Source of the DNA: Bacillota bacterium
Lineage (GTDB): Bacteria; Bacillota; Clostridia; Clostridiales; Clostridiaceae
Length of the DNA stretch: 64,000 nucleotides
Reading direction: 5' to 3'
Assembly (NCBI GenBank): GCA_021781745.1
Contig: JAJXWH010000002.1
Location: 71,974-135,973 of the forward strand
The notes beneath the pieces are model-generated. The model worked only from the letters and a program-made list of their open reading frames with translations. It was not told the origin of the DNA and made no database searches. Of the stretch, positions 41,052 through 64,000 are shown piece after piece. Made by a program: the position numbers and the translations under genes. Numbering within the stretch: the stretch's first letter is position 1; every line of letters begins with the position of its first letter.

Positions 41052-41287
41052 AAGCTTAGGTGTGTATCAAAACCGAGAAATTAGGTACATATGTGTAAAA
41101 TAGGCATTTGAAAATAAACTGCTGAATGTTCTTAATAGGTGGTTGTTCCATTTTTACTTGTCTAATTAACAATTTGAGCAAGTAGAAATGGGTGCAACCA
41201 CCTATTTAGAACATTCCAGTGAAATTTTCATAGTCCTATGGAACACATATGTACCTAATTTCGGTTGATACACTCCTAAACTTAGTT
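41052..41287. repeat. ~235-bp nested palindrome
   Basis: The outer arms read GTGTATCAAAACCGAGAAAT then TAGGTACATATGTGT, and on the opposite side CACATATGTACCTA then ATTTCGGTTGATACAC. The inner arms are GAATGTTCTTAATAGGTGGT and ACCACCTATTTAGAACATTC, then CCATTTTTACTTG and CAAGTAGAAATGG around a ~17-base loop. Nearly the whole element can fold back on itself. Its right end abuts the stop codon of the WYL regulator. Confidence 0.85.
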
Positions 41288-42192: not shown

Positions 42193-42222
42193 TTTTATCA
42201 CCTAAATTTATTATATATGTTT

Positions 42223-46261: not shown

Positions 46262-46262
46262 A

Positions 46263-46384
46263 AATTATAAGTTATAAATTATAAGTTATGAGTCATGGAT
46301 GATATTTCTTCGAAATATCCTTAGAAAAGCCGCAGGCTTTTCACCCTATTAACTTATCACTTGTAACTTATAACTTATCACCAA
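46263..46384. repeat. Modular multi-hairpin spacer between hybrid kinase and HPt genes
   Basis: The left arm ATAAGTTATAAATTATAAGT and the right arm (minus strand) TGATAAGTTATAAGTTACAA are built of the same ~11-base repeats. They enclose GATATTTCTTCGAAATATC and AAAAGCCGCAGGCTTTT hairpins. The layout is shared with 22123-22256. Confidence 0.65.
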
Positions 46385-46400
46385 TATATAGAGGGGGTAT

Positions 46401-46787
46401 ATGCTTTTGGATTATAATACGAAGTATGATATAACTGGCTTTACTATTGAGTTAGGTCTCAGCCTAGAAGAAGTATATGTTTTATATGCTGAATTGATTT
46501 CTGAAATTAATTCAGCAATTTCAGAGATAAAATTTCTCATAGATAAGAAAGATATTACGAAAATAAAAAAGATAATTCATAATCTAAAAGGAGTTTCTGG
46601 AAATTATCGAATTACAGATGTTTATGTGGAAACTAGTAGAATTAATGACATGTTAAAATTCGAAAATTACAATAATCTTGAACTTGATTTGAATAATTTA
46701 TTTAATATTTGTGATATGGCAATAAAACAAATTAAAAATTACTTTAATCAAAAATCTATCTATATAGATACCCGAAATGTAAACTAG
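46401..46787 (+). CDS. Histidine phosphotransfer (HPt) domain protein
   Basis: 128 residues, all helical. The phosphorylatable His is in KKIIHNLKGVSGNYRI (about residue 57), matching the HPt consensus HxLKGxxxxxG. The start ATG follows GAGGGGGTAT. It should shuttle phosphate from the hybrid kinase receiver to a response regulator, such as the receiver at 43.8 kb, the one at 47.0 kb or the LuxR-type regulator at 54.5 kb. The multi-hairpin element separates it from the kinase gene, which may lower its co-expression. Confidence 0.85.
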   Translation: MLLDYNTKYDITGFTIELGLSLEEVYVLYAELISEINSAISEIKFLIDKKDITKIKKIIHNLKGVSGNYRITDVYVETSRINDMLKFENYNNLELDLNNLFNICDMAIKQIKNYFNQKSIYIDTRNVN

Positions 46788-46882
46788 ACTTAGAGTAAAT
46801 TGAAATAAAAGAAACACTGTTCCTCAAACCTATGGAAATATTGCTTAAAACACCTGAGAAAGGAAAAGTAGTTATAATAGAT

Positions 46883-46938
46883 GAAAAGCCATAGGCTTTT
46901 CTAAAAAGATACTTTTTAGAAAAGTCTGTGGCTTTTTA
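46883..46938. terminator. Bidirectional terminator between convergent signalling operons
   Basis: AAAAGCCATAGGCTTTTCTA and, opposite, TAGAAAAGTCTGTGGCTTTT with CTAAAAAG/CTTTTTAG at the apex form a ~25-bp stem. It separates the + strand phosphorelay genes from the minus-strand chemosensory operon. Confidence 0.8.
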
Positions 46939-46985
46939 TCCTTTATTTTCAATTGAATCGAGAATTAATTTATAAATGCAAAATC

Positions 46986-47387
46986 TTAATTAGCTGAATC
47001 TAATTTTAATTTTTGCATTACTTCAACAAGCTTTTCTGTATTAATTGGCTTAGTTACATATACTTCGCAGCCAAGTTCAAAAGCCTCTTGAACATCCTTT
47101 GCGTTATCCAAGGCAGTAATTACAAATTTTTTAGAAATCTCTTCATCAATAATCTCTTTTTCTTTTTCAATAGAAGTAATCATTTTTAAAGCTTTTAACC
47201 CATCCAGCTTTGGCATCATTATATCAAGGCATATGAGCCCATATAAATCATTCTCTTCCAATGAAAACATAAATGCCTTAACTGCTTCTTCACCATTAAC
47301 TACCATATCACAATCACCATACTGTGAAAAAAATTTATATAAAAATCTTCTATTAACATAATCATCTTCTGCAATAAGAATTCTCAT
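46986..47387 (-). CDS. Stand-alone response-regulator receiver, last gene of chemosensory operon 1
   Basis: 133 residues, receiver only. Acidic pair in ILIAEDD, phosphoacceptor Asp in LICLDIMMPKLDG, Thr in FVITALDN and Lys in YVTKPIN. It has a slightly longer loop (EKEKEIIDEEISKK) than CheY. It follows the REC-kinase gene by 36 bases on the same strand and is the likely partner of that kinase. Start ATG behind GAGGGGTTGATA. No DNA-binding output. Confidence 0.87.
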   Translation of the reverse strand: MRILIAEDDYVNRRFLYKFFSQYGDCDMVVNGEEAVKAFMFSLEENDLYGLICLDIMMPKLDGLKALKMITSIEKEKEIIDEEISKKFVITALDNAKDVQEAFELGCEVYVTKPINTEKLVEVMQKLKLDSAN

Positions 47388-47423
47388 TAATTATCAACCC
47401 CTCTAATCTAATTATTCTATGTT

Positions 47424-48893
47424 TTACATCAATCTCATTACATCTCTTTCTAACTGTTCAAATACATTTTTCACTTTATCTGCGTTGTTTCTTCTCGCAT
47501 TTGCCTTTAGTTTAAATCCCATCATCACTAAATCGTCAAATTTAGAAAGGAGCAAAGAGTCGTTTATAAAATCAGCTAATTTCTCAATTTTTTTCATATC
47601 ATCTCTTGCATCCTGCATTTTTTGAAGAAGTTTTTGCAGCTCATTATTTAATGCCATATTATTATTTCTGTTACCTACTTCCTCTATATCATTTGCTTTT
47701 TTCAGTTCTCTATAATATTTACTTGTATCATCTATTTTTGCTAATTTAAAAGTAGCTGTAAAACTAAAAATACTTCCAGCTGGTTCTTGATTTTCAACCC
47801 AAATCTCTCCATTTAGCATTTCAACTAATTGCTTTGACAATGCAAGTCCTAGCCCTGTGCCTCCATATTCGCGTGAATATGAATTATTTAATTGGCTAAA
47901 ACTCTTAAAAAGCAAATTTTTATCCGTTTCACTTATGCCTATACCCGTATCCTTAACAGAAAATTTTAGGGCGATAATATCTTCATATATGTTCTGTTTT
48001 TCTACTGCTAACAAAACCCTTCCTTCATGAGTAAACTTAATCGCATTACTGATTAAATTGTTTAGTATCTGCTGAAGCTTTCCACAATCTCCATACAACA
48101 AGTCAGGAACTTCATAAAAATTATTATGCTCCAAAGTAATTCCTTTTACTTTTGCATTATAGCCATAAATTTTGATCACTTTATATATTAGACTCTTGAG
48201 ACTAAAGTTATTTTGTTTTAATTCCATCTTACCTGCTTCTGATTTTGAATAATCTAAAATTTCATTAACAATATTAATTAATGAATAGGCACTATTTTTA
48301 GCAATCAAAAGATTTTCTCTTTGTTCCTTATCCAAAGTTTCAGCCATTAGTGTTAATTCAATCATTCCAATAATACCATTAAGTGGTGTACGTATCTCAT
48401 GACTCATATTAGCAATAAAATTACTTTTTGCTTTATTTGCCGCCTCAGCCTCCTCTTTTGCTCTTATAAGAAGATTTTTCATTTCTTCTTCAATTTTTTT
48501 TCTTTTAATTCTTTCATTCAATTCGCTAAGCTCGCGTTTTACAACAGGACCAAGTCGTGCTAATTTGTCTTTCATTATATAGTCCCTACAGCCAGCACGC
48601 ATAGCCTCTACTGCCACCTCTTCCCCGATTTCTCCTGATACTATAATAAAAGGTATATCTAATCCCGTTTCATTTAGTATTTGCAGCGCTTCAACAGAGC
48701 TAAAATTTGGCATTACATGATCAGATAAAATAACGTCCCAATAACAACTATCACTTAATGCACTTCTTAACTCATTCGCACTTTCTACTTGCTTATATTC
48801 TACATTAAATCCACTTGATCTAAGCTGCGCTACTTCATAATTCAAAGAAGCCTTTGAATCCTCTATTATGAGAACCTTAATATCTTTTGTCAT
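47424..48893 (-). CDS. Soluble receiver-histidine kinase
   Basis: About 489 residues from the ATG behind GAGGTGATACTT. The order is reversed relative to ordinary hybrids: an N-terminal receiver (1-125, [10 protein letters not shown] and phosphoacceptor Asp in [10 protein letters not shown]), a coiled coil, HisKA with phospho-His in [15 protein letters not shown] (about 164), then HATPase with [20 protein letters not shown] and [12 protein letters not shown] helical C-terminal extension of ~90 residues follows. No membrane segment. Being in the chemosensory operon, the receiver could take phosphate from CheA and thereby link MCP signals to a second kinase; this is inference. Confidence 0.9.
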
Positions 48894-48944
48894 AAGTATC
48901 ACCTCGTGGAAAAGATTTGAATTGATTTTCTAGGTTTCCATCCT

Positions 48945-50552
48945 TTATAAGTACTGGGGTACATTATCTAAATCAATATCATTATATTTTGCAGGCCTAT
49001 TGCTGCTTTTTAAATTGAATTGATTAACCTGCTCTTTAAGCAGCTCAGCTTGAGAAGCTAATTCTTCGCTAGCAGCTGCACTTTCTTCTGCAGTAGCTGA
49101 ATTAGTTTGTACAACATTTGATACTTGCATGATCCCTTGATTTAGCTGGGCAATTCCTTCTGCTTGTTCATTTGAAGCTACTGCTATTTGGCTTATAAAA
49201 TCAGCAACTTTTACAGTATCCTCAACAATTTTATTTAAAGCATCTGCAGTTTGATCTGCTATCTTTGTCCCTGCTTCTGCTTTTTTAATGGAACCTTCAA
49301 TCATATCTGCTGTTTCTTTAGCTGCCTTAGCAGATCTTGCGGCTAAATTCCTTACCTCCTCTGCTACAACTGCAAAACCTTTACCATGCTGCCCTGCTCT
49401 TGCAGCTTCAACTGCTGCATTTAATGCTAGAATATTTGTTTGGAATGCAATTTCATCAATAACCTTTATAATCTTATATATACTTGTTGATGCATTGTTT
49501 ATTTCATTAACTGCTCTTTGCATTTCCTTCATCTGCTCATAGCCCTCTTCTGCATTGACTTTTGCACTTACTGCCATATCATTTGCATTTGTAGCATTTT
49601 CTGCATTCATTTTTGTTTGAGCTGATATTTCTTCAATAGATGCAGTTAATTCTTCAATTGAGCTCGCTTGTTCCATAGCACCTTGAGAAAGAGCCACACT
49701 TGAGTCAGATACCTGCTTTGAACCTGCTGAAACTTGTTCAGCTGCTGAATTAATGTGAGTCATAGTACTATTTAATTTATCAGTCATCTTTCTAAAACAT
49801 GCTGCTAATAAACCAATTTCATCTTTGCCATGAATATTAATATTTATATCAAAATCTCCATCAGCTACTTTATCAGCTATTTTTATTATTTTGCAAACAG
49901 GTTTGCTTATTGATGAAGAAATAAATAATCCTATTAATACTGCTATTACTATTCCTGCTACTAAAATTACTATTGTCATTGTCACTGTACTTTTTGTTGT
50001 TTGGTCATTATTATCAGATGCTTCTTTAGCAAGACTCAATTTCATACTAGTATAGCTTTTAACAGCTTTATCTAAGGAATTTACAGCATTTGTACCTTCA
50101 TTATAGAAATAATTTGTTGCTTCCTCTTCTTTATTTTCATTTTTTAATTGAATTACTTTGTCCAAAACATTCATATAATCTAATTTTGATACTTTTAAAT
50201 TGTCTATAACTGTCTTTCCATCATTAGTGAGTGTAGTTTGAGTTAATTTAGTAAGACTCTCATCAAAAGCATTGCTAGCTTCTTTAATATTGTTGCTATA
50301 TTCCTGTATTTTAGACGAATCTTTTGCTATTATTATATCTCTGCCATTTATCCTCAGACTACTAAAAGAATTAGAAAGTTCAATAACATCTGACAATGGT
50401 GCTGTCATTTTCTCATACAGTTGAGTATCAAGGTCATTAATTTTATTAATGTTTGAAATTCCTTGTATTCCTATAACTCCTGCAATGACAGCTACAACAA
50501 AAAATCCTAAAAGTATTTTTACACTTATTCTTAAATTATAAAACCATCCCAT
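48945..50552 (-). CDS. Methyl-accepting chemotaxis protein with four-helix-bundle sensor
   Basis: 535 residues. Membrane helix 1 about residues 10-30, an external helical domain of ~160 residues (4HB_MCP type, with [20 protein letters not shown] at its start), membrane helix 2 about 190-212 and HAMP (213-266). The signalling coiled coil has the tip [20 protein letters not shown] followed by [19 protein letters not shown]. It belongs to operon 1 with CheW directly upstream (26-base gap). Start ATG behind GGGAGGGGTATTA. The ligand is unknown. Confidence 0.92.
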
Positions 50553-50578
50553 ATTAATACCCCTCCCAACTTTTCGTC

Positions 50579-51073
50579 TTATTCAATATTGCTTAAAATG
50601 TCAGCATCATCATCATTAATTAACTTATCGCAGTCTAAGATTAATTTAACTTCATTATCTATTTTTCCTATACCTCGTATATATTTGTTACTAATTTTAT
50701 TTAAATTTGGTGGTGGTATAATATCTTGATCCGGTATGTTTAATACTTCTGAAACACTATCAACAATTAGGCCAATTGATAGCTCATTTATATCTATTAC
50801 TATTATGCAGGTTCTATCATTATATTCTCTAAATGCCTTTTTAAATCTTAACCTAACATCCATTACAGGGATTATCTTTCCCCTTAAATTAATAATCCCT
50901 CTAATATAGTCTGGAAGTTCTGGAATTAAAGTTATTGGCTGTATTCCAATAATTTCTGTAATATTATTTATACCTATCCCATAAGATTCATTATCGAGGA
51001 CAAAAGTAAGATATTTTCCCTTTTGAGTATCTTCATCTGTTTCTACAATATCTATCATTAAATTTTCGTTCAT
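50579..51073 (-). CDS. cheW: Chemotaxis coupling protein
   Basis: 164 residues, CheW fold: [20 protein letters not shown] at the start of the domain, [23 protein letters not shown] in the middle and [17 protein letters not shown] later. It joins receptors to the CheA kinase encoded at 59-61 kb. The N-terminal ~15 residues and the acidic C-terminus ([12 protein letters not shown]) are extra to the core. It lies between two MCP genes in operon 1; start ATG behind GAGAGGGAG. It is the only cheW in the window. Confidence 0.93.
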
Positions 51074-51183
51074 ACTAACACTCCCTCTCTTTTTGCAAAA
51101 GCTAATGATCTTGCTGAATTAATTTATCCGTCATGGCTATGTTTCGAAATTTAAAGTTTTTAATTTTTTATTATCTTAACACA

Positions 51184-53796
51184 CTAATATTTCCCAAACT
51201 CTGTATCATCTAAATTTATTTTAATTTTTTTACCTGTATTAAACGATTTGCTGTTATCATTAATATTTTCTAAATTAAATATCTCCTTTTCACCTATATT
51301 ATCTAAAAATATTCTATTGGAATTTGCTTTCTTCAATTTGAATTGCGCTACTCTTTCTTTTAATGTTTCTGCTTGACTAGACATTTCTTCACTAGAAGAT
51401 GCAGTTTCCTCTGATGTAGCAGAATTCATTTGAGTAACTCTTGATATTTGTTGTATAGCATCATTTATTTGTATTATAGCAGAAGCCTGTTCACTACTAG
51501 ATGCTGCTATTCTATTAACTATTTCAGAAGTACTGCTAATATCATTAACAATAGCATTTAGTGATTCTGCTGTATTATTTGCTATTATAGTCCCTGCATT
51601 CGCCTTCTTTATTGATCCCTCTATTAATGCTGTGGTTTCTTTAGCTGCATTGGCACTTCTGCCTGCGAGATTTCTTACCTCTTCAGCAACTACGGCAAAA
51701 CCTTTTCCATGCTGCCCAGCCCTTGCCGCTTCTACTGCCGCATTAAGTGCTAGTATATTTGTTTGGAAAGCTATTTCATCTATAACCTTTATTATCTTCG
51801 AAATATTCTCAGAGGCTTCATTTATTTCATTCATAGCCTTTAACATATTATTCATTTCTGTGTTTCCATTTATCGCATTTGTAGTAGCCTTTGTAGCTAA
51901 TTCATTAGCAGTGTTAGCACTCTTCGCATTCATCTTTGTTTGTTCACCAATTTCTGAAAGTGAAGCAGTTATCTCTTCTACAGCACTTGCTTGTTCCGCA
52001 GATGCCTGTGATAAACTTTGACTTGCATTCGAAACTTGAATTGATGCTGACGCCACTTCATTTGCTGATATATTAATATCAGTTAATACCTGATTAATTG
52101 CTTCTATTGATGAATTTAATCCGCTTATTATACTTGAATAATCACCTTTATAAGAATTCTCAATGTGTATATCCAAGTTTCCTTTTGACATTTCCATTAA
52201 TGCATTATTTATTTCTCTTATTGGTTTAGAAAAGGCATCTACAGCTTTATTTATTATACTTATAAGTTCTTTAAAGCTTCCCGTAAACTTCTCACTTTCA
52301 CCTCTAACTTGCAAATTTCCTTCTGCTGCAGCTGTAAGCACTTGAACTTGTTCATCCACAACCTTAAGAATATTATTTCTTAATCCATTTAAGCTTTCAT
52401 TTGCAATACCATACCTTCCTGGCAGCTTTTCAAGTTCAACTGTAAAATCACCTTCTGAATAGGACTTTAATACAGCAAATATTTTTATTAGTATATCTAC
52501 AGATATCCACATTCCATCATTTACGCTTTGCGCCATTTGCCTGTATACTCCCTCAAATTTTGAAACATCTATTGTATCTCTTGTATTTCCTAGCTTAAAT
52601 GTATCCTTCATCCAGTTAACTTCTTTTACAAACATGTTTAAGGTATTAATTAATATGTTCAAACTGTTTTTTGTTTTATTAAATTCTCCTTGGAATTCAT
52701 TTTCAATCTTTTCTGGTACATCACCATTACTTATTCTATTTATATAATCAGATGTTAAATTTATTGGTTCGACAAATGACTCTATTATATTATTAATTCC
52801 TTCAACCATTTCAGCCCATGAGCCATTAAAATGTGATGGGTCTATTCTTCTTGATAAGTTTCCTAACTTAATTTCATTAGCTATACCAATTTGTTCTTTA
52901 GATATATTAAGTAAATTGTTTCTTAGATTTTCTATATTTTCATTTACTAAACCATATCTACCAGGGAATTTTTCAAGCTCAACTGAAAAATCTCCTTCTG
53001 AATATGATTTAAGTACTGCAAATAACTTAATAAAGACTTCTATAGAAATCCATGTTGTATCATTCATGCATTCAGCCATTTCCTTGTAGAATCCCTTAAA
53101 TTTTAATGCATCTATCTTATCCCTTGTATTTCCTAACTTAAAAGTTTCTTTAAGCCAATATACGTCTTTCTTAAATGTCTCTAAAACATCTATAAGTTGA
53201 ATAATACTATTTTTAGTATTGTTGAATTCTCCAAATTCTTCTTCACTAGGTTTAGCACAAGCTTCACCCTTGCTTAATCTATTTATGTAATTTGAAGTTG
53301 CTTTAATATTTTTTATAAGAATGTTTATAGTTTCTAAATTATTTTCACTTATATTTTTCCATGTTCCTCTATATTTTGACTTATCCAATTTTATATTAAA
53401 GTTACCTTTTTCCACATGTTCCTTAATACTATTGGAATCGTTAACTAAACTGCTGAAATTCCTTTGTATTACTTTTAATTCACTAGCAAGTTCACCATAT
53501 TCATCTTCATTTATTATATTAATATCTCCATTAAACTCTCCATTTGCTATATTCCTAGTAAACTCGTTAATCTTTTTTATCGGTTTATATATTAACTCCA
53601 TTAATATGTATCCTAAAATTACTGTAACAACTATCGAAATTGCCCCCAAAATTATTATATTTGTTTGCACGTCCTCAGATACTTCTGCTTTCTTATAAGC
53701 TAAACCAAATAAAATTATTTGCAAAATAACTATAATCATAAAAATTAAACTGATTTTGTTTTTAATTTTTGAACCACCCAAATTAAACATATTCAT
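51184..53796 (-). CDS. Large MCP with duplicated HAMP-like modules
   Basis: 870 residues. There are two hydrophobic helices (about 15-32 and 43-65) with almost no external loop, then a classic HAMP (66-118). A ~170-residue module follows that occurs twice in tandem (about 170-340 and 341-510), each with YINR(L/I)[21 protein letters not shown] and ELEKxPGRYG. A further HAMP-like segment ([12 protein letters not shown]) leads to the signalling domain with [20 protein letters not shown]. The sensory input is therefore cytoplasmic or transmembrane. It follows cheY by 69 bases. An in-frame ATG six bases later (53790) has slightly better spacing from AGGGTGG. Confidence 0.9.
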
Positions 53797-53865
53797 CCAC
53801 CCTAACTATAATTTTAATTTTCTTAACTACACCTTATACCCGTTCATACCTATCGTTAAGCTTCT

Positions 53866-54237
53866 CTATTTACTAATGGTTTCACTAATATTCATCAATT
53901 GTTTAGTTACAATTTCTTCTTTAAATGGTTTCACTATAAATGATACTGCGCCTGCCATTATAGCTTCTTTAACTTGTATTTCATGTCCCATAGAAGAAAT
54001 AACTATGATTCTTGCATTTTTATCAATAGTTTTTATAATCTTTATTGCTTCAACTCCACCAAGCTCTGGCATTGTCAAATCCATAGTCACAATGTCTGGT
54101 TTTAATACCTTATATTGTTGTACGGCCTTTATTCCAGTATCCGCTTCACCTACAACTTCAAACCCACACTTTTCTAAAATTGTTTTCAAAGCCATTCTCA
54201 TAAAAGCCGCATCATCTACAACTAATACTCTTTTCAC
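53866..54237 (-). CDS. cheY: Chemotaxis response regulator CheY
   Basis: 123 residues, single receiver. VLVVDDAAFMR gives the acidic pocket, VTMDLTMPELGG the phosphoacceptor Asp, VISSMG the Ser position and FIVKPF the Lys; the CheY-like pattern VGEADTGIKAVQQY is also present. Phosphorylated by CheA, it would act on the flagellar switch or on another target. It is the first gene of operon 1; GTG start behind GGGAGGTAAAAATT. Upstream is the conserved chemosensory promoter region shared with the cheA operon. Confidence 0.9.
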   Translation of the reverse strand: MKRVLVVDDAAFMRMALKTILEKCGFEVVGEADTGIKAVQQYKVLKPDIVTMDLTMPELGGVEAIKIIKTIDKNARIIVISSMGHEIQVKEAIMAGAVSFIVKPFKEEIVTKQLMNISETISK

Positions 54238-54290
54238 AATTTTTACCTCCCTAGCACATTATTCTTCAATCTTCTGTCTTTTTTCTTAAT

Positions 54291-54390
54291 AATTATATTT
54301 TAAATGCTTTTAATGTATCTTTGTAGTACCACAAGTCATGTAGTAATATGCAAATTGCACAACAAATTGGACTCTAAATGCAAATAGCAT
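54291..54390 (-). promoter_or_regulatory. Conserved promoter region of chemosensory operon 1
   Basis: Read on the minus strand: two sites, ATGCTATTTGCAT (54390-54378) and GTGCAATTTGCAT (54360-54348), exactly 30 bases apart; then ATGACTTGTGGTACT (54339-54325); then a -10 box TATAAT (54297-54292). The -35 position reads AGATAC, which is poor, so an activator is expected. By hand count about 73 of 100 bases match 61201-61300 without gaps. Confidence 0.75.
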
Positions 54391-54524
54391 TGTTCTATTA
54401 CAGACAAAATGTTATAATTTATAATAATATAAATTATTTTTTACTAAAATAGGGGTTTTTAGGTATTTATTTTTACGCAAAAATTTAATATATGTTATTA
54501 CGTTTGAGTAAAGAGGGGTTTTAT

Positions 54525-55181
54525 ATGACAAGGGTTATTATTGCTGAAGATCAACGACTTTTGAGAGAAAGCTTTAAGAATATAATTGAGAATAATAGTG
54601 ATATCCAAGTTATAGCTTGTGCTTCTAATGGGGAAGAGGCCTATAACTTATGTAAAGAACACGAGCCTGATGTCGTATTAATGGATTTATCCATGCCAAT
54701 ATGTAATGGCACTGAGGCTACTAAATTGATTAAATCAAATTTTCCATCAGTTAAAGTATTAATACTTACCGCCTCAAATGATAAAATGGATGTTACAGAT
54801 GCTATAAGCAATGGGGCCGATGGTTATATTTTAAAAGATATCAGTACGGAAGAATTAATATTATCGATAAAGAGTGCTTCCTTAGGACTGGGTATAATAA
54901 CTAAAGATATATTGAGTCCTATAGTATCAAATCTTCGCAAAGAAAATAAAAAAACTAAAAAGAAAGCCTTAAATATTGAAGGTATAAACATTTTTTTAAC
55001 AGAAAGAGAGATAAAGATAGTATCTATGATTGTAGATGGAAAAGATAATAAGGAAATAGGTGCTTCTTTATTTATTGCTGAGGGAACAGTTAAAAATATA
55101 ATTACAGAGATTATTTCGAAATTACAATTAAAAGATCGTACGCAATTGGCAGTATATGCCGTCAAAAATGGACTAGCTTAA
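54525..55181 (+). CDS. LuxR/NarL-type response regulator between the two chemosensory operons
   Basis: 218 residues from the ATG behind AAAGAGGGG; an in-frame ATG at 54492 lacks a ribosome site. The receiver (1-120) has IIAEDQRLLRE, phosphoacceptor Asp in VVLMDLSMPICNG, Thr in ILTASND and Lys in YILKDIS. The C-terminal HTH of the LuxR type is FLTEREIKIVSMIVDGKDNK, then IAEGTVKNIITEIISKL. It is transcribed away from cheY across the conserved promoter region, and no kinase gene is paired with it. I infer that it activates both chemosensory operons. Its stop codon is embedded in the palindromic repeat copy B. Confidence 0.88.
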   Translation: MTRVIIAEDQRLLRESFKNIIENNSDIQVIACASNGEEAYNLCKEHEPDVVLMDLSMPICNGTEATKLIKSNFPSVKVLILTASNDKMDVTDAISNGADGYILKDISTEELILSIKSASLGLGIITKDILSPIVSNLRKENKKTKKKALNIEGINIFLTEREIKIVSMIVDGKDNKEIGASLFIAEGTVKNIITEIISKLQLKDRTQLAVYAVKNGLA

Positions 55182-55343
55182 GGCACATGAAAGAAAATAA
55201 CAAGTCCAAAATGCCATGATTATTTTTCATCAGACAAGGAAGTAGATTGGCCTCATAGCAGGCCTATTAGGGCAATCTGCTGACACAGTATGATGGAAAA
55301 TAGGCTTGGCAGATTGACTTGTTATTTTTTTGATTGTGCCTAA
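55179..55343. repeat. ~163-bp palindromic repeat, copy B
   Basis: Inverted copy of 40812-40974, roughly 80 percent identical by eye. It begins on the stop codon of the LuxR-type gene (TAAGGCACATG) and ends 13 bases before the cheB stop (TTTGATTGTGCCTAA). Here it lies between convergent genes and could terminate both. Confidence 0.85.
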
Positions 55344-55355
55344 TAGTCCATTTCT

Positions 55356-56387
55356 TTATTTTAGCATATCACATAAAATACTTGGAATTTTTGATATAGG
55401 AATTTGTTTTTCAACTGCTCCTATATCAAAAGCTACCTTTGGCATACCATATACAACTGAAGATTGTTCATCTTGTCCAATAGTTCTTGCACCTGCTCTT
55501 TTCATAGACATGAGTCCAACGGCACCATCATGCCCCATACCAGTTAATATTATACCTACTGCATTTCTTGCCACAACTTTTGCAACAGATTCAAAAAGTA
55601 CATCTACTGATGGGCAATGTCCATTAACTTTACTTCCTTGAGAAACATCAACTATATACTTATCAACCGCTTTCTTTACTTTCATGTGTTTATCACCTGG
55701 AGCTATTAAAACTTTTCCGGGTGCTATTACATCCCCACTTTGTGCTTCTTTAACTTCAAAATGTGTTTGTAAATTAAGCCTATCAGCAAACATTTTAGAA
55801 AATACTGGCGGTATATGCTGTACTATTACTATTCCAGGCATTGCTTTAGGCAGCATTTTTAACAAATTATATATTGCTTCCGTGCCTCCAGTTGAAGCTC
55901 CTATTGCAATTATTTTATTATTTGATACAGTGATACTATTTTTTTGTGCCGCACTATATATATTATTTTTTGATAGCTTATCTAAACTTGTTGATAAGTT
56001 TGCATTTACTGCCCCCTTAATTTTTAGAATCAGTTCATTTACAAAGTTTTCAAATGCATTTGGAATTCTTGCATCAGGTTTACTTAAAAAATCTACTGCT
56101 CCTGCATCCATAGCGTCGAATACAATATCACTTACTGAACTTACAACAACTATAGGAATTTTATATTGCGGAAGAAGCCTTCTTATGAACTCCACTCCAT
56201 TTAATTTAGGCATCTGTACATCACAGGTCATTACATCAGGATTTAGTTCGAGAAGTTTATCTCTTGCATCGTATGGATCTGTAGCCTTTCCAACTACTTC
56301 TATACCTGGATCCCTAGATAATCCCCTCGATATTGCTTCCCTAAATACCAAACTGTCATCAACTACTAAAACTCTAATTTTTCTCAT
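55356..56387 (-). CDS. cheB: Chemotaxis protein-glutamate methylesterase CheB
   Basis: 343 residues. N-terminal receiver with VLVVDDS and phosphoacceptor Asp in VMTCDVQMPKLNG, a linker, then the esterase with catalytic Ser in AIGASTGGTEAI, His in IVQHIPPVFSKMF and Asp in LTGMGHDGAVGL. It removes methyl groups from (and may deamidate) MCP glutamates. The ATG at 56387 follows AAGGTGAAAGTT; a GTG nine bases upstream is in the ribosome site. It is the last gene of operon 2, 42 bases after cheR. Confidence 0.94.
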   Translation of the reverse strand: MRKIRVLVVDDSLVFREAISRGLSRDPGIEVVGKATDPYDARDKLLELNPDVMTCDVQMPKLNGVEFIRRLLPQYKIPIVVVSSVSDIVFDAMDAGAVDFLSKPDARIPNAFENFVNELILKIKGAVNANLSTSLDKLSKNNIYSAAQKNSITVSNNKIIAIGASTGGTEAIYNLLKMLPKAMPGIVIVQHIPPVFSKMFADRLNLQTHFEVKEAQSGDVIAPGKVLIAPGDKHMKVKKAVDKYIVDVSQGSKVNGHCPSVDVLFESVAKVVARNAVGIILTGMGHDGAVGLMSMKRAGARTIGQDEQSSVVYGMPKVAFDIGAVEKQIPISKIPSILCDMLK

Positions 56388-56429
56388 AACTTTCACCTTC
56401 TAAATCTAATTATATTACTACAAATAAAC

Positions 56430-57245
56430 TTATCCCTTTCTATATACAGATGGCATTACATAATTAAACCCCATAGTTTCACCATTTAAAGATTCTGAGT
56501 GACCTATAAAAAGATATCCTCCATGCTCCATACTATTATAAAATTTTCGTATTAATTCATTCTTCGTGTTATTGTCAAAATAAATCATTACATTTCTACA
56601 AAAAATAACATGGAATTTCTTTTTAAACGGAAACACATTATCCATTAAATTAAACTTTCTATATATAATTTCATTTTTTATCATCTCTGAAAACATAAAA
56701 TTTTCCTCATCATATTTTTTTAAATAATCCCTCTTCCAGTCTTCCGGTAATGGAGAAATTTGTTCCCTATGATATATACCACTTTTTGCGATATTTAAAA
56801 CTTTTTCTGATATATCTGTTGCTAGCAATTTTTTATCCCACCATAATTTTTCTTCCTTAAAAAATTCATCTAATATCATAGCAATTGTATATGCTTCCTC
56901 ACCTGATGAACAACCTGCAGACCATATTCTTAAATCTCTATCCTTCTCTGAACTCACCAAATATGGAAGAACTTTTTCTCTTAAGAAATTAAAATGATTC
57001 TTTTCACGCATAAAATATGTATGATTAGTAGTTATTTTATTAATTAATGTACTAACTGCTTTTCCAGTCTTATCTGCTATTATATAATCATAATACTGAG
57101 AAAAACTCTCAAAATTAAGTTCCGCCAATACATTATGCAATCTCCCAATCACTAGCATCTTTTTTTCTTCTTTAAGATTAATGCCATAATTCTCTTTTAT
57201 ATATTTTGATAATTTAATAAATTCATTTTCTGTAATTGTAACCAT
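56430..57245 (-). CDS. cheR: Chemotaxis protein methyltransferase CheR
   Basis: 271 residues. Helical N-terminal domain (1-80), then the methyltransferase with HTYFMREKNHF, the SAM-binding loop RIWSAGCSSGEEAYTIAM, LLATDISEKVL, HVIFCRNVMIYFD and the end GGYLFIGHSESL. It methylates MCP glutamates using SAM. Between an MCP (17 bases) and cheB in operon 2. Start ATG behind AAGGTGTGG. Confidence 0.94.
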   Translation of the reverse strand: MVTITENEFIKLSKYIKENYGINLKEEKKMLVIGRLHNVLAELNFESFSQYYDYIIADKTGKAVSTLINKITTNHTYFMREKNHFNFLREKVLPYLVSSEKDRDLRIWSAGCSSGEEAYTIAMILDEFFKEEKLWWDKKLLATDISEKVLNIAKSGIYHREQISPLPEDWKRDYLKKYDEENFMFSEMIKNEIIYRKFNLMDNVFPFKKKFHVIFCRNVMIYFDNNTKNELIRKFYNSMEHGGYLFIGHSESLNGETMGFNYVMPSVYRKG

Positions 57246-57262
57246 AATACCACACCTTATCT

Positions 57263-58984
57263 TTAATACTTTCCAAATTCATTATCACTAAGTAATATTT
57301 TCTTTGAATAATTTTCTTTTTTATTTCTAGATGCTTCATTGCTTATCAATTTTTTATTATTTAAATACATATCTTCAACAACACTATCAACATGCAAATG
57401 ATCTTCTTCCGAATAAGGTGGTGTAATCTTATTAGATTTAATATTGAACATTTGAACTTGCTCCATTAAAACTTCTGCTTGACCTGCTAATTCTTCACTT
57501 GAAGCAGCACTTTCCTCCGCAGTCGCTGAATTACTTTGTACAACTTGCGAAATTTGTATTACCCCTTGAGAAATTTGTGAAATTCCAGTAGCCTGTTCAT
57601 CACACGCTTCTGTTATTCCGTTAACTATTCCAGCAACCTTTTCTATATCATTCACGATATTTTCAAGGGCATTAGCAGTTTGATTGGCTATATCTGTTCC
57701 ATCTTGAATTTTAATAAGGGACTCTTCTATTATGTTTGTAGTTTCTTTAGCTGCATTAGCAGACCTTGCAGCTAAATTTCTAACTTCTTCTGCTACAACT
57801 GTGAACCCCTTACCATATTGTCCAGCTCTAGCTGCTTCTACAGCAGCATTTAAAGCAAGTATGTTAGTTTGAAATGCAATTTCATCAATTACCTTTATGA
57901 TTTTTGATACATTAGTAGAGGAATTATTAATTTCATCCATTGCACTGAGCATTAGCTTCATTTCACTATTTCTTTTCACGGCACTAATCTTTGTACTATT
58001 TGCAATGCTATTAGCTTCCTTTGCATTTTCAGCATTTACCTTTATTTGAGCGGAAATCTCTTCAATAGATGCAGTTAATTCCTCGACAGCACTAGCCTGT
58101 TCAGTGGCTCCTTGTGATAACGCTATTGTGGAATCTGAAATTTGTCTTGAGCCAACCGTAACTTGTTCTGCTGCAAAGCTAATATGTTCAATTACTTCAT
58201 TTAATTTATATTGCATTTTCTTCATGGATTTAGATAATATTCCGATTTCATCCTTTGAATTATTAGTGATTTTTACATCTAAATTTCCTTTACTTATTGC
58301 ATTTGTTACATTCATAAGTTCGGATATAGGCTTGCTTATTAATCTAGAAATGATTATTCCAAAAAATATTGCAATAATCATAGCTATAGTAATTGTAATG
58401 ACCATAGTTAGTACTGCGTAGTTTACTTCTGTTGTATACTCTTTGGATTTTCCCATGCCACCAGATGTTTTTAATTTAAAAAGATTATCTGCTGAAGCAT
58501 TAATTTCATCAGATACTGCTTGTGTTTCATCTGAGACCATCAATTTAAGTGCTTCATCCTTCTTGCCTGAAGCAGCTAATTCCATAATATTATCTTTTAT
58601 AGATACATATTTATCTAATAACATTTCAAGATTAGATAGTTCCTTTTTACCCTCATCTGTTTGAATAGATTTTTCTACTAGTAGCAAACTTGATTTCATT
58701 TGTTTTTGATAATCATTTATTTTATTTGTATAACTTATTGTTTTATTTGCATCATTATATAAAATAACATTATTTAAGTTAATCTTAAGCCTCTGGTATG
58801 AAATAGATACATCAGCAATATCGCCTATAGCTGCACCATAGTTTGTGTATAAATCAGAATAGTTCTTATCAGTTTCCTTAATTTTAATAATTCCAACCAT
58901 TCCAACTATTCCGGCTATAAGTGCAACTATTATAAAACCAACTAATATTTTTACTCTTATTTTTATATCATTAAACCATCTCAT
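57263..58984 (-). CDS. Methyl-accepting chemotaxis protein with four-helix-bundle sensor
   Basis: 573 residues from the ATG behind GGGGGAGTTGT; an upstream in-frame ATG lacks a site. Helix 1 about residues 10-30, an external helical domain of ~160 residues, helix 2 about 190-215 and HAMP (216-268). The signalling tip is [20 protein letters not shown] with [18 protein letters not shown]-terminal tail ending [13 protein letters not shown] resembles the last residues of the 870-residue MCP (LDDTEFGKY), a shared end that may be functional. The gene follows cheA by 55 bases in operon 2. Confidence 0.92.
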
Positions 58985-59039
58985 ACAACTCCCCCATTTA
59001 CCATCAAATTGAATCAATATCTAATCTTATCTCATTCAC

Positions 59040-61100
59040 TCATATTCTTGCCATTAATCCTGCCATATCAATTATCAAACTTATATTGCCATCCCCAAGA
59101 AGTGTACATCCTGCTAAATCCTTTATATTTCTAATGTTTTTTATGTAACTTGGCAGAGCTTTTACAACAACTTGTTGTTGTCCTAACAGTTCATCGACTA
59201 AAATACACATCCACTTTTCATCTTGCTCCACCATAATTAGAATTCCATCAGAAAAATTATTTGCATTAGTATCTACACCAAAATGTTCATTAAGTCTAAC
59301 TATCGGATAACACTCACCTCTAACCATAATCATTTCATTATTGTCTGGGTCTTTTATAATATCACTTTCTCTAGGCCTAAAAAACTCTTTTATGGAACTT
59401 GTAGGCAGAGTATACCTTGAAATACCAACTCTTACGTTCATACCATCTATAATTGCAAGAGTTAATGGTATTTTAATCGTCATACTCGTCCCAAAATCTT
59501 CAACACTGTCTACACTAACTGATCCACCTATCTTTTCGATATTTTTCATAACCACATCCATACCTACACCTCTGCCGCTATATTCAGATACAGTCTCCTT
59601 TGTAGAAAATCCAGGTAGGAATATTAAATTAAATATCTCTTTCTTTGTCATTTCGTTTTCATTCTTATCTATTAATCCATTTTCTCTTGCTTTTTCTAAT
59701 ATTTTTTTCTCATTAAGACCTTTCCCATCGTCTCTAACTATAACAAGTACATCGCTGCCTGCATTTTTAGCTTCTAAAATTAAATTACCAGTTGATTCTT
59801 TACCTTTATCTATTCGCTCTTCACCGGTTTCTATACCATGGTCAATGGAATTTCTAACCAAATGCATTAATGGATCTGATATATGTTCAATTATGTTTTT
59901 ATCAACTTCTGTTTCCTCACCAATAATCGTTAATTTAACTTCCTTATTCATTTTTTTGCTCATATCTCGAACAATTCTGTTCATTTTTTGGAAGGTTGCA
60001 GAAAGTGGTACCATTCTTATTGACATTACAGTATCTTGCATTTCTGATATTATCTTACGAAGCTGCCTTGCTGATTTTTGAAAGTTGTCTAATTCCAATC
60101 CTGCCAAATCAGGATTTTGCGTAACCATGGATTCTGCGATAACTAGCTCCCCAATAAGATCCATAAGTCTATCCGCCTTTGATACACTTAAACTTATAAT
60201 TCCTTGATGAGAAGAAGCTTTTTCATTTCTCTTTTCTTCAGTAATAGTTTTCTTTTCTGCTTCCTTTACTTTATGTTCTTTTTCTAATGCCACTTCCTCA
60301 ATTATGTCTTTATTGATGATTGAATTTCCTTCACTATTTAATTCGCTAATATCTAGCTTATCTAAAAATACTGTTTCATTTACTATTGATTTAATTGTAT
60401 TAATATCTAAGTCCGAAGAAATACATATCTCAAATCCATTTTTCCTAATTTCTTCACTGGCCTTTTCATCATCATCAATAACATTCTCTGGTTTGCTGCT
60501 GGTTACTTCTGCCACCTCTGATAATTTATGAAGAACACCAAAACATCTTATATTCTCCATTCCACATCCTTCAACAAATGATAAATTAACCTTGAATTTA
60601 TTTTTTAATTCTTCACTCTTACCTTTACCGCTGGTTACGAAAAACTTTTGTGGCTCTGAATTTATATTTTCTGCTACTTCAACATTTCCGCTTCCCTTTT
60701 TAAGATTATTTAAAAACTCCTTTATTTCGCTTATTTTATCAGAAGCATCACCATCTGCTGTTTTTCCATCTTGAATCTTTGACACCTCAATCTTAATAAA
60801 ATCTATAGCATTTAAAACAATATCACTTAAAATATTATTATCTACTTCCTTAGGCTTATTCTCTCTAAGGTAATAAAATAAGTCCTCCACAGAATGTGAA
60901 AGTTCTGCAATATTATTAAAAAGCATCATTGCTGATGATCCTTTAACTGTATGCATGATTCTAAATATTTCATTTATGGAATTAGTAAATCCGTCTTCCT
61001 TTTCTCCATTGATTACTAACTGTTCCAATTGCTCTATAAGCTGAGTGGTTTCAAAAATGTACATATCTAGCATGGATTCATTTATAATATTATCTGACAT
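59040..61100 (-). CDS. cheA: Chemotaxis histidine kinase CheA
   Basis: 686 residues from the ATG behind GGGAGGTAATTGAA. P1 (HPt) has the phospho-His in IMHTVKGSSAMM (about residue 48). A P2-like region lies about 140-260. P3 dimerisation begins LMDLIGELVIAESMV (about 315). The P4 kinase has HLVRNSIDHGIE, VRDDGKGLN and SGRGVGMDVV. P5 is CheW-like, IDGMNVRVGISRYTLPTSSI to LIIDMAGLMARI. It phosphorylates CheY and CheB in response to MCPs. First gene of operon 2. Its coupling protein CheW is encoded in operon 1, so the two operons must work together or with other clusters. Confidence 0.95.
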   Translation of the reverse strand: MSDNIINESMLDMYIFETTQLIEQLEQLVINGEKEDGFTNSINEIFRIMHTVKGSSAMMLFNNIAELSHSVEDLFYYLRENKPKEVDNNILSDIVLNAIDFIKIEVSKIQDGKTADGDASDKISEIKEFLNNLKKGSGNVEVAENINSEPQKFFVTSGKGKSEELKNKFKVNLSFVEGCGMENIRCFGVLHKLSEVAEVTSSKPENVIDDDEKASEEIRKNGFEICISSDLDINTIKSIVNETVFLDKLDISELNSEGNSIINKDIIEEVALEKEHKVKEAEKKTITEEKRNEKASSHQGIISLSVSKADRLMDLIGELVIAESMVTQNPDLAGLELDNFQKSARQLRKIISEMQDTVMSIRMVPLSATFQKMNRIVRDMSKKMNKEVKLTIIGEETEVDKNIIEHISDPLMHLVRNSIDHGIETGEERIDKGKESTGNLILEAKNAGSDVLVIVRDDGKGLNEKKILEKARENGLIDKNENEMTKKEIFNLIFLPGFSTKETVSEYSGRGVGMDVVMKNIEKIGGSVSVDSVEDFGTSMTIKIPLTLAIIDGMNVRVGISRYTLPTSSIKEFFRPRESDIIKDPDNNEMIMVRGECYPIVRLNEHFGVDTNANNFSDGILIMVEQDEKWMCILVDELLGQQQVVVKALPSYIKNIRNIKDLAGCTLLGDGNISLIIDMAGLMARI

Positions 61101-61200
61101 TTCAATTACCTCCCTTTTTTGTATTTTCATCTAAAAATACAAAATAAATATTTCAATATAAAAATTTATACATTAGCTAAATTTAATCAATCTCCCTCGT

Positions 61201-61300
61201 AATTATATATTAATTTCTTTACGAACATCTTTTAAGTACCACAGGTCATTGATTTAAATGCAAATTGCACTACTATATGAAGCATAAATGCAAATCGCAC
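61201..61300 (-). promoter_or_regulatory. Conserved promoter region of chemosensory operon 2
   Basis: Read on the minus strand: sites GTGCGATTTGCAT (61300-61288) and GTGCAATTTGCAT (61270-61258), 30 bases apart; ATGACCTGTGGTACT (61249-61235); -10 box TATAAT (61207-61202). The -35 position reads AGATGT. Every element has the same spacing as in front of cheY. The 388-base spacer 61101-61488 otherwise contains the motAB terminator. Confidence 0.75.
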
Positions 61301-61351
61301 ATATGGATAAACAAACTTTAAGCTGATTAGATTTATGAATATAACCAATCG

Positions 61352-61434
61352 AAAAAAAGACTAACTCTGTTGCTCGGTTACTAAAGAAAAGATTTTAGCT
61401 TTCTCCATGCAACACTTCGCAAAATAGTTAGTCC
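61352..61434 (-). terminator. motAB terminator with three-way structure
   Basis: On the minus strand GGACTAACT pairs with AGTTAGTC, followed by TTTTTTT; inside, GTTGC/GCAAC and GCTAAAATC...TTTAG add further pairing. The + strand core CTGTTGCTCGGTTACTAAAG is shared with the elements at 31.7 kb and (inverted) 13.8 kb. Confidence 0.75.
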
Positions 61435-61488
61435 TTCTTCCTGGTATTTTATATAATTCAATTTTATAATTGTTTGATGTATTAGCTA

Positions 61489-62241
61489 TTAGTTTGACTT
61501 TCCATCTGTAGCCACTGGGAAATTACGAACCACGTAAATTTCTACTCTTCTATTTTGTGCCCTTCCTTCTTCTGTGCTGTTAGTAGTTTTAGGTTTGTAC
61601 TCACCGTAAGCTTGGATTGAAACATTATCTTGCTTAATCCCACCTGAAGAAACCATAAAATTCATAACATTAATAGCACGCATTGCGCTTAAATCCCAGT
61701 TAGAACGGAATTTATTATTGCTTATTGGAACATTATCAGTATATCCAGCAACTCTAATCTGATTATTTAAGCTCTTAAGCATATCAGAAATTTTTAATAG
61801 CAGTGGTGATACTTCTTTTAATACATCTGCTTCTCCTGAATTAAAGAGAACAACATCTTGTATTGCAATTTCAAGTCCCTCACCATTAAGATCAACTTTT
61901 ATTTTATCTGAATAACCTTCTTCCTTAATCTCTTTATCCAACATGTTTTTAATTTGATTCATCTTGTCTTCTTCAATCTGACTATCTGTTGCTCCTACAG
62001 AATCAGATGTACCTGTTTCCTCCATGGGAATAGCTGCATTCCCATCCTTACTCATCTGCCCAGGACCACCAGCAAAAATCACATTAAATTCTTTAGCCAT
62101 TGCCGCAAGCTTGGCCTTATCTGTTTGACCCATTGCAAACATAACAATAAATAGTGCCAATAGGAGTGTTAACATATCTGAATATGGAAGGAGCCATGCT
62201 TCATCAACATGCTCTTCATGATGCTGTTTTTTTCTACTCAT
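61489..62241 (-). CDS. motB: Flagellar motor stator protein MotB
   Basis: 250 residues. The single membrane helix with the proton-binding Asp is LPYSDMLTLLLALFIVMFAM (Asp about residue 22). A plug/linker of about 70 residues follows, then the OmpA-like peptidoglycan-binding domain with VAGYTDNVPISNNKFRSNWD, LSAMRAINVM and RAQNRRVEIYV. It anchors the stator to the wall. The gene follows motA with a 17-base gap and GGAGAATAGTC before the ATG. The motor genes lie immediately upstream of the cheA operon on the same strand but are separated from it by a terminator. Confidence 0.94.
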   Translation of the reverse strand: MSRKKQHHEEHVDEAWLLPYSDMLTLLLALFIVMFAMGQTDKAKLAAMAKEFNVIFAGGPGQMSKDGNAAIPMEETGTSDSVGATDSQIEEDKMNQIKNMLDKEIKEEGYSDKIKVDLNGEGLEIAIQDVVLFNSGEADVLKEVSPLLLKISDMLKSLNNQIRVAGYTDNVPISNNKFRSNWDLSAMRAINVMNFMVSSGGIKQDNVSIQAYGEYKPKTTNSTEEGRAQNRRVEIYVVRNFPVATDGKSN

Positions 62242-62258
62242 GACTATTCTCCTTTACA

Positions 62259-63041
62259 CTATTTATCATTATTTTCTTCAAATCTAATTCTTTGTTTTGG
62301 TTCTAACATACCTACTAGCTTTCTTTCAATACTCTTTGGATTATTCCCAGCTTGAATAGCTAAGATTCCTTCAAGCATAATGTTCATATTTCTTATTTCT
62401 TCTTGAGATTTTCTTTTTAATCTATTTGCAAATGGATGATAAAGCACATATCCAGTAAAAATACCATAAACAGTTGCAACGAAGGCTGAAGATATACTTT
62501 CTCCAAGTTTTGCAATATCATCAAGATTTCCAAGTGCACCAATTAGTCCAATAACCGCTCCTAAAACTCCTAGAGTTGGTGCTGTACTACCTGCTGTTGT
62601 AAACACTGTAGCACCCAAACGATGTCTCTCTTCCATACTATCAATTTCTATTTCTAAAACTTCCTTTATAAGGTCAGGTTCCAAACCGTCAACTACCATT
62701 TCCAACCCTTTTTTCATAAACTTATTTTCTAAGCCTTGAATCGTACTTTCAAGAGATAGTAATCCATCTCTTCTAGTTGTTTGAGACATTTCTACAAGCT
62801 GCACTATAATTTCAGCAGGATCTTGTTTATTCTTTTCACTAAAAAGAACACCAAAAATTTTAGGAATCTTAAGAAACTCTCCTCTTGGAAAAGAATTCAT
62901 TACCGCAAGTATCGTACCAACAACTATTACCATTATTGCTTCTCCACTTAGCAGTATTGTTACACTTGCTCCTTTTAGAAGTAACCCTGTAATTACGACT
63001 ATAAAACCTCCAATAATACCAATAAGCAAAAATATATCCAT
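62259..63041 (-). CDS. motA: Flagellar motor stator protein MotA
   Basis: 260 residues from the ATG behind AAAAAGGGGGACAAAA; earlier in-frame codons lack a site. Four membrane segments (about 3-20, 28-47, 150-172 and 180-202). The typical MotA features are the cytoplasmic loop with charged residues (LVEMSQTTRRDGLLSLE), and LGVLGAVIGLIGALG and SISSAFVATVYGIFTGYVL in the C-terminal membrane pair with the conserved Pro region PTLG. It forms the ion channel with MotB that drives flagellar rotation. First gene of the motAB operon. Confidence 0.94.
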   Translation of the reverse strand: MDIFLLIGIIGGFIVVITGLLLKGASVTILLSGEAIMVIVVGTILAVMNSFPRGEFLKIPKIFGVLFSEKNKQDPAEIIVQLVEMSQTTRRDGLLSLESTIQGLENKFMKKGLEMVVDGLEPDLIKEVLEIEIDSMEERHRLGATVFTTAGSTAPTLGVLGAVIGLIGALGNLDDIAKLGESISSAFVATVYGIFTGYVLYHPFANRLKRKSQEEIRNMNIMLEGILAIQAGNNPKSIERKLVGMLEPKQRIRFEENNDK

Positions 63042-63337
63042 TTTTGTCCCCCTTTTTGTAACTCTGCATATATACAACAAATTTTTAAATTATGTTTCTA
63101 AATATAATTCTACGATTTTCTTCTTAATATCTTTTTATTTTTTTACTTAATACTACAAAAATATCTCACCAATAATATAATACCATAATATTAAATATTG
63201 GAAAACTATATTTTGACATATTATCCTATATAAATTTTACTTCTTTTTACAAATACTTGCTCATTAATTTTTAAGTAAAAAATAAACACTTGTGTGCGAA
63301 ACAGCAAGTGTTTATCTATTTTTAGTATGAAATTTTT
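63042..63337. other. Spacer between beta-glucosidase and motA
   Basis: 296 bases. The right part is the motA leader and promoter region on the minus strand. The left part is the beta-glucosidase terminator. A sigma-D-like arrangement (TAAG, then GATATT 14 bases on) is visible at about 63130 but is too weak to call. Confidence 0.3.
63280..63322 (-). terminator. Beta-glucosidase terminator
   Basis: On the minus strand ATAAACACTTG pairs with CAAGTGTTTAT around CTGTTTCGCACA and is followed by TTTTT. It is 16 bases past the gene stop. Confidence 0.85.
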
Positions 63338-64000
63338 TTATAATTCTTCACCATTAGTTTTTATAACATTTTGATACCAATAGTAACTATCCTTTTTATA
63401 ACGATTCATTGAAGCTCCTTCTTCTTCTTCACGGTCTACGTAAATGAAACCATAACGCTTTTGATATCCATTTAACCAGCTTAATAAATCTGTTATTGAC
63501 CATGTGCAGTATGCAAGGACTTCACAGCCTTCATTAACAGCTTCCTTTAATTCTTCCACGTGAGCCTTTAAATATGCTATACGATAATCATCATGAATTT
63601 TGTTGTCTTCAGTCTTCTTATCAAATGCACCTAATCCATTTTCAGAAATAACTATTGGTAAATCGTATCTGCTTGTAATAATTCTGCAGCACATTCTTAT
63701 ACCCATAGGATCTATTGTCCAATCCCAATCTGTAGTTTTTAGGAATGGATTTGGTGGGTTTTTATATAATCCTGGAGTACCACTAACTTGTGATGTTCCC
63801 TTTTTACCTGTAGTATTCATTTCAGCCATACCCACACCATCTATTGAGTTATATTCAACAACTGCAGTTTGGTAGTAGTTTACGCCCATGAAGTCCACTT
63901 GCGCTGCTGCTTTCATAAGTTCTTCATCACCTTCTTCAAAGGTAGGTGCAACTCCTTGGCTTTGTAAATATTTAAGTGCAGGTTTTGGATATCTTCCAAA
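63338..64000 (-). CDS. GH1 beta-glucosidase / 6-phospho-beta-glucosidase, 5' part outside window
   Basis: 220 C-terminal residues are visible and the frame is open through the right edge (FGRYPKPALKYLQSQGVAPT at the cut), so the true start lies outside. GH1 features: DFMGVNYYQT, the catalytic nucleophile Glu in PIVISENGLGAFD, and the C-terminal CTWSITDLLSWLNGYQKRYG with FIYVDRE and RYKKDSYYWYQNVI. The Ser/Lys/Tyr signature of phospho-glycosidases seems present in the last part (SMNRYKKDSYYWY), suggesting a phosphorylated disaccharide from a PTS. It would cleave cellobiose- or aryl-glucoside phosphate in the cytoplasm. Confidence 0.9.
   Translation of the reverse strand, partial: FGRYPKPALKYLQSQGVAPTFEEGDEELMKAAAQVDFMGVNYYQTAVVEYNSIDGVGMAEMNTTGKKGTSQVSGTPGLYKNPPNPFLKTTDWDWTIDPMGIRMCCRIITSRYDLPIVISENGLGAFDKKTEDNKIHDDYRIAYLKAHVEELKEAVNEGCEVLAYCTWSITDLLSWLNGYQKRYGFIYVDREEEEGASMNRYKKDSYYWYQNVIKTNGEEL

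Follow-up and report, generated by a model that had tools for sequence, protein, structure and literature searches.

In the stretch of DNA analysed here (64,000 nucleotides, referred to below as the window), two operons of a chemosensory gene cluster, one headed by cheY and the other by cheA, are preceded by sequences so alike that the locus raises the question of whether both are read under one common control and, if so, which protein exerts it. The source genome (5.73 Mb in 129 contigs) belongs to the Clostridium beijerinckii group, and the nearest named relative by its CheA is Clostridium sp. LS, at 98%. The answer we favour, and consider moderately probable from the sequence evidence, is that one dedicated local activator, most likely a VraR-like response regulator whose gene lies between the cheY and cheA operons, drives both through twin promoters.

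The promoters ahead of cheY and cheA

The stretches before cheY (54291-54390) and cheA (61201-61300) are identical at 73 of 100 bases without a gap, which bears out the roughly 73 percent estimated in an earlier note on this DNA. Elsewhere in the window the best match to the cheY stretch has 51 identical bases if taken from the same strand and 52 if taken from the opposite one, and the maximum over 300 random sequences (64 kb each, intergenic composition) was 56. Each promoter, read on the minus strand, consists of two 11-bp dyads of the form TGC-N5-GCA about 30 bp apart, an ATGAC-N4-G-N2-ACT block and then a -10 box. The sites and blocks lie on the minus strand at the places where they had been claimed, and the claimed offsets of 30 and 23 bases hold from low coordinate to low coordinate; counted from centre to centre, the steps between elements are 22 and 30 bp, near two and three helical turns. 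For comparison we used the 11 of 68 genomes of the genus Clostridium with an ortholog of the regulator, all from the C. beijerinckii group. Positions relative to the start of transcription assume a start 7 bases past the conserved -10. The features are as follows.

53866..54237, minus strand: cheY, first gene of a predicted operon cheY-MCP-cheW-MCP-receiver/kinase (MCP, methyl-accepting chemotaxis protein), the operon being inferred from strand and short gaps
54378..54389, minus strand: distal dyad of the cheY promoter, TGCTATTTGCAT, centre about -94; a dyad stands here in 11/11 genomes
54348..54359, minus strand: proximal dyad of the cheY promoter, TGCAATTTGCAT, centre about -64
54325..54339, minus strand: ATGACTTGTGGTACT block of the cheY promoter, centre about -42
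54320..54325, minus strand: weak -35 region of the cheY promoter, TACAAA (TACAAA in 10/11 genomes, TACTAA in one)
54297..54302, minus strand: conserved -10 of the cheY promoter, TAAAAT (the TATAAT of the earlier note is at 54292-54297)
59040..61100, minus strand: cheA, first gene of a predicted operon cheA-MCP-cheR-cheB
61288..61299, minus strand: distal dyad of the cheA promoter, TGCGATTTGCAT
61258..61269, minus strand: proximal dyad of the cheA promoter, TGCAATTTGCAT
61235..61249, minus strand: ATGACCTGTGGTACT block of the cheA promoter
61230..61235, minus strand: weak -35 region of the cheA promoter, TTAAAA (TTAAAA in 10/11 genomes, TTATAA in one)
61207..61212, minus strand: conserved -10 of the cheA promoter, TAATAT (the TATAAT of the earlier note is at 61202-61207)

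The two TATAAT boxes that had been taken as the -10 elements are present in this genome, but across the comparison set they are kept in only 3/11 cheY and 2/11 cheA promoters, the other promoters matching at that register in 5/6 to 3/6 positions (TAAAAT in three cheY promoters, for example). Five bp upstream of this register, all 11 cheY promoters have either TAAAAT (10) or TACAAT (1) and all 11 cheA promoters have TAATAT. The pattern by which the promoters were located itself included TTAAWAT, but the same conserved -10 is visible in a separate alignment made without TTAAWAT, which covers 11 cheY and 10 cheA promoters. The true -10 thus probably sits 5 bp upstream of the TATAAT. Counted from the conserved -10, the centre of the block falls at about -42 of the predicted start instead of the -47 or so that follows from the earlier -10, and with this shift the block would come to lie near -42, the position of a class II activator. 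The -35 had been described as poor, and a consensus scan of 53800-61700 agrees, returning 31 sigma-70-like sites of which none is on the minus strand at either promoter.

Conservation and distribution of the architecture

Conservation in relatives was one of the points on which the earlier reading had been staked, and both promoters are kept in all 11 Clostridium genomes that hold the regulator. The spacing from block to -10 is identical in 22/22 promoters, the distance from dyad to block is 20 bp in 21/22, and the distance from dyad to dyad is 30 bp in 17/22, the others having 28 bp (once), 29 bp (twice) or 31 bp (twice). TGC-N5-GCA is kept in 44/44 dyads, each chosen as the best match inside a fixed interval, a choice that favours the consensus. 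Given the poor -35, the constant distance between block and -10 suggests promoters of the activator type.

Mean pairwise identities, taken from ungapped comparison across the genomes, are 0.85-0.96 for the dyads, 0.80-0.91 for the block and 0.97 for the -10, with 0.58-0.79 in the gaps between elements and 0.35-0.48 in the flanks. When the cheY promoter is compared with the cheA promoter of the same genome, the elements score 0.76-0.90, the gaps 0.37-0.47 and the flanks 0.32-0.39. The claim that the gaps differ freely is therefore true of one promoter against the other, but within each promoter the gaps show intermediate conservation.

Two of the clusters have lost genes at these very places. 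In one genome (G029; L084, ~9880-10130) cheA is gone from the cluster, and in another (G023) both cheA and cheY are gone, the losses lying at ~4740-5170 and ~9550-9850 of L085 in a cluster that is otherwise similar, with promoters and receptors kept. After the loss the promoters stay and precede the next gene of the operon, a chemoreceptor, which indicates that the elements belong to the operons and not to the leaders of cheA or cheY.

Within the source genome the full architecture is found nowhere else. With up to 3 mismatches allowed, the two-dyad pattern matches the genome twice, at the two che promoters; the same is true of the dyad-plus-block pattern, and with up to 2 mismatches the block-to-minus-10 pattern finds only these two promoters in the 5.7-Mb genome. 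The pattern is thus not spread at random, as the earlier note had allowed that it might be. In the wider samples, a search for the pair pattern with up to 2 mismatches allowed yields 16 matches in 8/68 genus genomes and the same 16 in 8/206 family genomes. Fourteen of them are at the two promoters, and the remaining two, one sequence shared by G002 and G013, fall inside an open frame; all eight genomes are among the 11 with a regulator ortholog. The block-to-minus-10 pattern was searched in those 11 genomes, chosen by the regulator ortholog, and has 26 matches there when up to 3 mismatches are allowed. The two che promoters account for 22 (the cheA promoter of G023 matching with 3 mismatches); the other four, all at 3 mismatches, lack a TGC-N5-GCA anywhere within 130 bases, and the loci fetched around them contain no che-like gene.

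Taken singly, the 12-mers are unremarkable in the window (17 against 15.95 expected at up to 2 mismatches), and the block alone at up to 3 mismatches occurs twice against 1.96 expected, though both occurrences are exact. The 11 genomes contain 47 exact 12-mers, of which 23 fall at the two promoters; of the 24 others, the 14 that were inspected are each covered by an open frame longer than 120 codons, one of them beside a weak kinase match, and no che gene is found within 1.5 kb of those 14. At up to 1 mismatch the source genome has 89 matches, which were not annotated. A wider regulon was considered and rejected, given the long open frames over the inspected stray 12-mers and a full architecture present only at the two promoters. 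The uniqueness in the genome, the conservation of the elements far above that of the flanks in 11 genomes and the retention of the promoters after gene loss together support the co-regulation of the two operons that had been proposed.

The candidate regulator and rival explanations

The gene that we regard as the best candidate for the shared regulator, judging from sequence features, is divergent from the cheY operon and lies between the two operons.

54525..55181, plus strand: NarL/FixJ-type response regulator with receiver and GerE domains (PF00072, PF00196), VraR-like, best candidate for the shared activator
54390..54418, plus strand: tentative promoter of the regulator, TTGTTC-17 bp-TATAAT, picked by eye; similar elements in some alignment rows
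47424..48902, minus strand: receiver-HisKA-HATPase kinase closing the predicted cheY operon, in 8/11 genomes

This receiver-GerE protein is the only one with a DNA-binding domain among six cluster proteins scanned with Pfam, the others being named from sequence, and a DNA-binding regulator is encoded inside the che cluster in the window and in the other 10 genomes. Its closest solved relative is a chain labelled VraR, with a full-length match (E 2e-33). We file it as NarL/FixJ and not as LiaR or VraR because no LiaS/VraS-type kinase gene adjoins it, its neighbours in the window being cheB and cheY. An ortholog with at least 78% identity is found in 11/68 genus genomes, the next best protein having 45% in the genus and 49% in the family. 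The gene stands between cheB and cheY in 9/11 genomes; in G031 it has cheY on one side and a contig end on the other, and in G023 cheY is gone. The predicted recognition-helix stretch FIAEGTVKNIITEIISKL is invariant in 11/11, as are the receiver residues E8, D9, D54 and K104, while T82 is present in 10/11 and replaced by S in one, a residue set that fits a phosphorylatable receiver. The regulator is also kept in genomes without cheA, cheY or the receiver-kinase.

The putative site of LiaR, GAC-N5-GTC, has the same 11-bp geometry as TGC-N5-GCA, so far as the available text of PMC7191749 describes it. The block has GAC and, five bases on, GTA or GGA in most copies and other letters in the rest. 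With such a LiaR-like geometry one protein could fill both the dyads and the block, which is a lead and not proof. The cheA block of G002, G003 and G013 (L077, L078, L079) can be read as two nearly identical 9-bp units in direct repeat, TGACTTAAG TGACTTAAA, which hints at a block made of two direct half-sites instead of a dyad.

From these features we infer activation, occupation of all three sites by one protein, the VraR-like identity of that protein and a signal reaching it. On this model the cheY and cheA operons would be read from two copies of one activator-dependent promoter: the regulator, once phosphorylated, would bind the dyads (about -94 and -64) and probably the block (about -42) beside the weak -35, cooperatively and on roughly one face of the DNA, and would recruit RNA polymerase to a promoter without a usable -35, with initiation directed by the conserved TAAAAT/TAATAT -10. 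The likely outcome would be that the levels of receptors, kinase and CheY of the chemosensory system are set jointly.

As to the signal, the receiver-HisKA-HATPase kinase is a possible phosphodonor for the regulator. It was not found in 3/11 clusters, namely G008 and the two without cheA (G029 and G023), and a link between this kinase and the promoters was rejected on that count. A bolder version, in which CheA or this receiver-kinase phosphorylates the VraR-like regulator and the regulator activates exactly the two operons of the array, strikes us as rather unlikely; the 2/11 genomes without cheA in the cluster still keep regulator and promoters. Were it true, receptor signalling would feed back on synthesis of the array, and cells could alternate between a chemotactic and a non-chemotactic state.

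The regulator's own promoter is less clear, since the consensus scan omits TTGTTC-17-TATAAT and prefers ATTACA-17-TATAAT, 7 bases on. The distal cheY dyad abuts the tentative -35 of the regulator in this genome (G000) and in G031 and lies farther away in relatives where that element is visible, and the control of the regulator may thus differ between these two genomes and their relatives. A conserved autoregulatory site was rejected, as a dyad adjoins the regulator promoter only in this pair.

Several observations count against a dedicated local activator. Outside the pair just named, no dyad adjoins a visible regulator promoter in the alignment, so that autoregulation is not conserved. No paired TGC-N5-GCA was found at the loci of 26 more distant relatives of the regulator, 19 of them from the genus and 7 from other genera; five of the 26 loci carry TGC-N5-GCA, six copies in all, none within 600 bases of the regulator-like gene, and none of the 26 stands beside recognisable che genes, bar one partial MCP match. 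The block search covered 11 of the 68 genus genomes, and these were picked by the regulator, so that the co-occurrence of regulator and promoters is not an independent test; nor does it tell the regulator apart from cheB, cheR or cheW. Two proteins are also possible, as the block matches the dyad sequence only in part. Finally, the 11 genomes form a narrow clade in which several hardly differ at these promoters (G000/G031; G002/G003/G013), so that the counts overstate independence and stand for fewer than 22 independent cases.

Some of these points would also suit another arrangement, possible but on the unlikely side, in which both promoters answer to an activator whose gene lies elsewhere, or to a pair of proteins, one acting at the dyads and the other at the block, while the local regulator has some other role. 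Dyad and block do differ in sequence, the promoter of the local regulator is not conserved beside a dyad, and a TGC-N5-GCA dyad could fit other helix-turn-helix families; a WYL-type transcription regulator is encoded at 41287-42201, 12 kb from the cheY promoter, although its gene adjoins the cluster in only 1/10 other genomes, within the stretches fetched. A distant regulator should have further targets, yet the patterns searched here place the full architecture only at the two operons on either side of the local regulator. The local regulator has itself persisted where cheA, cheY or the receiver-kinase was lost. Repression, with a dimer near -42 lying over the -35 to block polymerase and the upstream dyads adding cooperativity or looping, we judge improbable: the block touches the -35 region and the near-whole-turn spacing suits cooperative binding, yet promoters without a recognisable -35 need help, not blocking, and a fixed upstream geometry is typical of activators.

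It is very improbable that an alternative sigma factor such as sigma-54 reads these promoters, with the conserved block as its -35 or -24 element. In the transcriptome of C. beijerinckii DG-8052, che genes rise 2- to 82-fold and their control is attributed mainly to sigma-54 in the available text of PMC5276810, an attribution that may concern other che genes. Neither intergenic region contains GG-N10-GC on either strand, the ground on which sigma-54 control was rejected; moreover, the -10 is A/T-rich and sigma-A-like, and two upstream dyads would be left unexplained. That the likeness is a functionless relic of a recent regional duplication, as similar sequences 7 kb apart might suggest, is barely credible, for cheY and cheA are not paralogs and the flanks of the two promoters are unrelated (0.32-0.39), in agreement with the earlier view that this is no simple duplication of coding DNA, while the elements stayed alike as the gaps came to differ, a footprint that already contradicts a relic. 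Activation by one local regulator thus remains the reading that we prefer.

Surroundings, significance and known systems

One feature upstream of the cheA promoter may bear on its isolation from neighbouring transcription.

61344..61445, minus strand: long hairpin with a T run after motB, possible terminator (z-score -6.15), absent from the consensus scan for short-loop terminators

Judging from this hairpin and its T run, transcription of motAB may stop ahead of the cheA promoter. A structured RNA as the basis of the conserved elements was rejected, as there is no Rfam match at gathering scores in 46200-64000 and the elements lie upstream of the conserved -10. Beyond the cheY operon, on the opposite strand, a hybrid kinase (HisKA-HATPase-receiver, 44258-46261) adjoins the cluster in 10/11 genomes. 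Elsewhere in the window, a tail-collar domain protein (1385-1933) and a phage-type lysozyme with choline-binding repeats (3617-4351) have a phage or phage-derived look.

What the locus offers is a concretely defined putative operator, in which paired TGC-N5-GCA dyads go with a block near -42, and a candidate regulator of a chemosensory system in solventogenic clostridia, a DNA-binding protein encoded inside the chemosensory cluster and having that cluster as its predicted regulon. With a local two-operon regulon of this kind, one could ask whether such a pathway adjusts its own expression. According to the available text of PMC5276810, chemotaxis genes change strongly in a degenerated C. beijerinckii strain. 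No study of this regulator or operator was found by titles and abstracts among the open-licence papers listed.

Chemosensory systems tied to a transcription factor and multi-site activator-dependent promoters are both already known, and the comparisons with cited systems below extend as far as the available text of each source. The regulator resembles the LiaR/VraR branch in its receiver and GerE domains, in an 11-bp dyad with 3-bp arms and a 5-bp spacer, as in the putative LiaR site, and in its binding upstream of the -35, which is predicted here (PMC7191749, where a T(X)4C(X)4G(X)4A motif is also given); it differs in that the arms are TGC/GCA, no LiaS/VraS-type kinase gene adjoins and the predicted targets are che operons. 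In Myxococcus, Che3-CrdA likewise ties a chemosensory system to a phosphorylation-controlled transcription factor, but CrdA is an NtrC-type sigma-54 activator of developmental genes (PMC3510030), whereas the regulator described here is of the NarL type and would act on the che operons themselves. The clostridial flagellar/chemotaxis operon (CA_C2225-2215, Cbei_4312-4302) also holds flagellar and chemotaxis genes (PMC3271303), but we take it as a separate locus, with no full-architecture match elsewhere in the 11 genomes, and the chemosensory system of solvent-producing clostridia described here appears separate from that flagellar che operon. The closeness to class II activator-dependent sigma-70 promoters lies in a site probably centred near -42 of the predicted start beside a poor -35, with more sites upstream, and the difference in three conserved elements that here keep a spacing of their own, 30 and 22 bp between centres.

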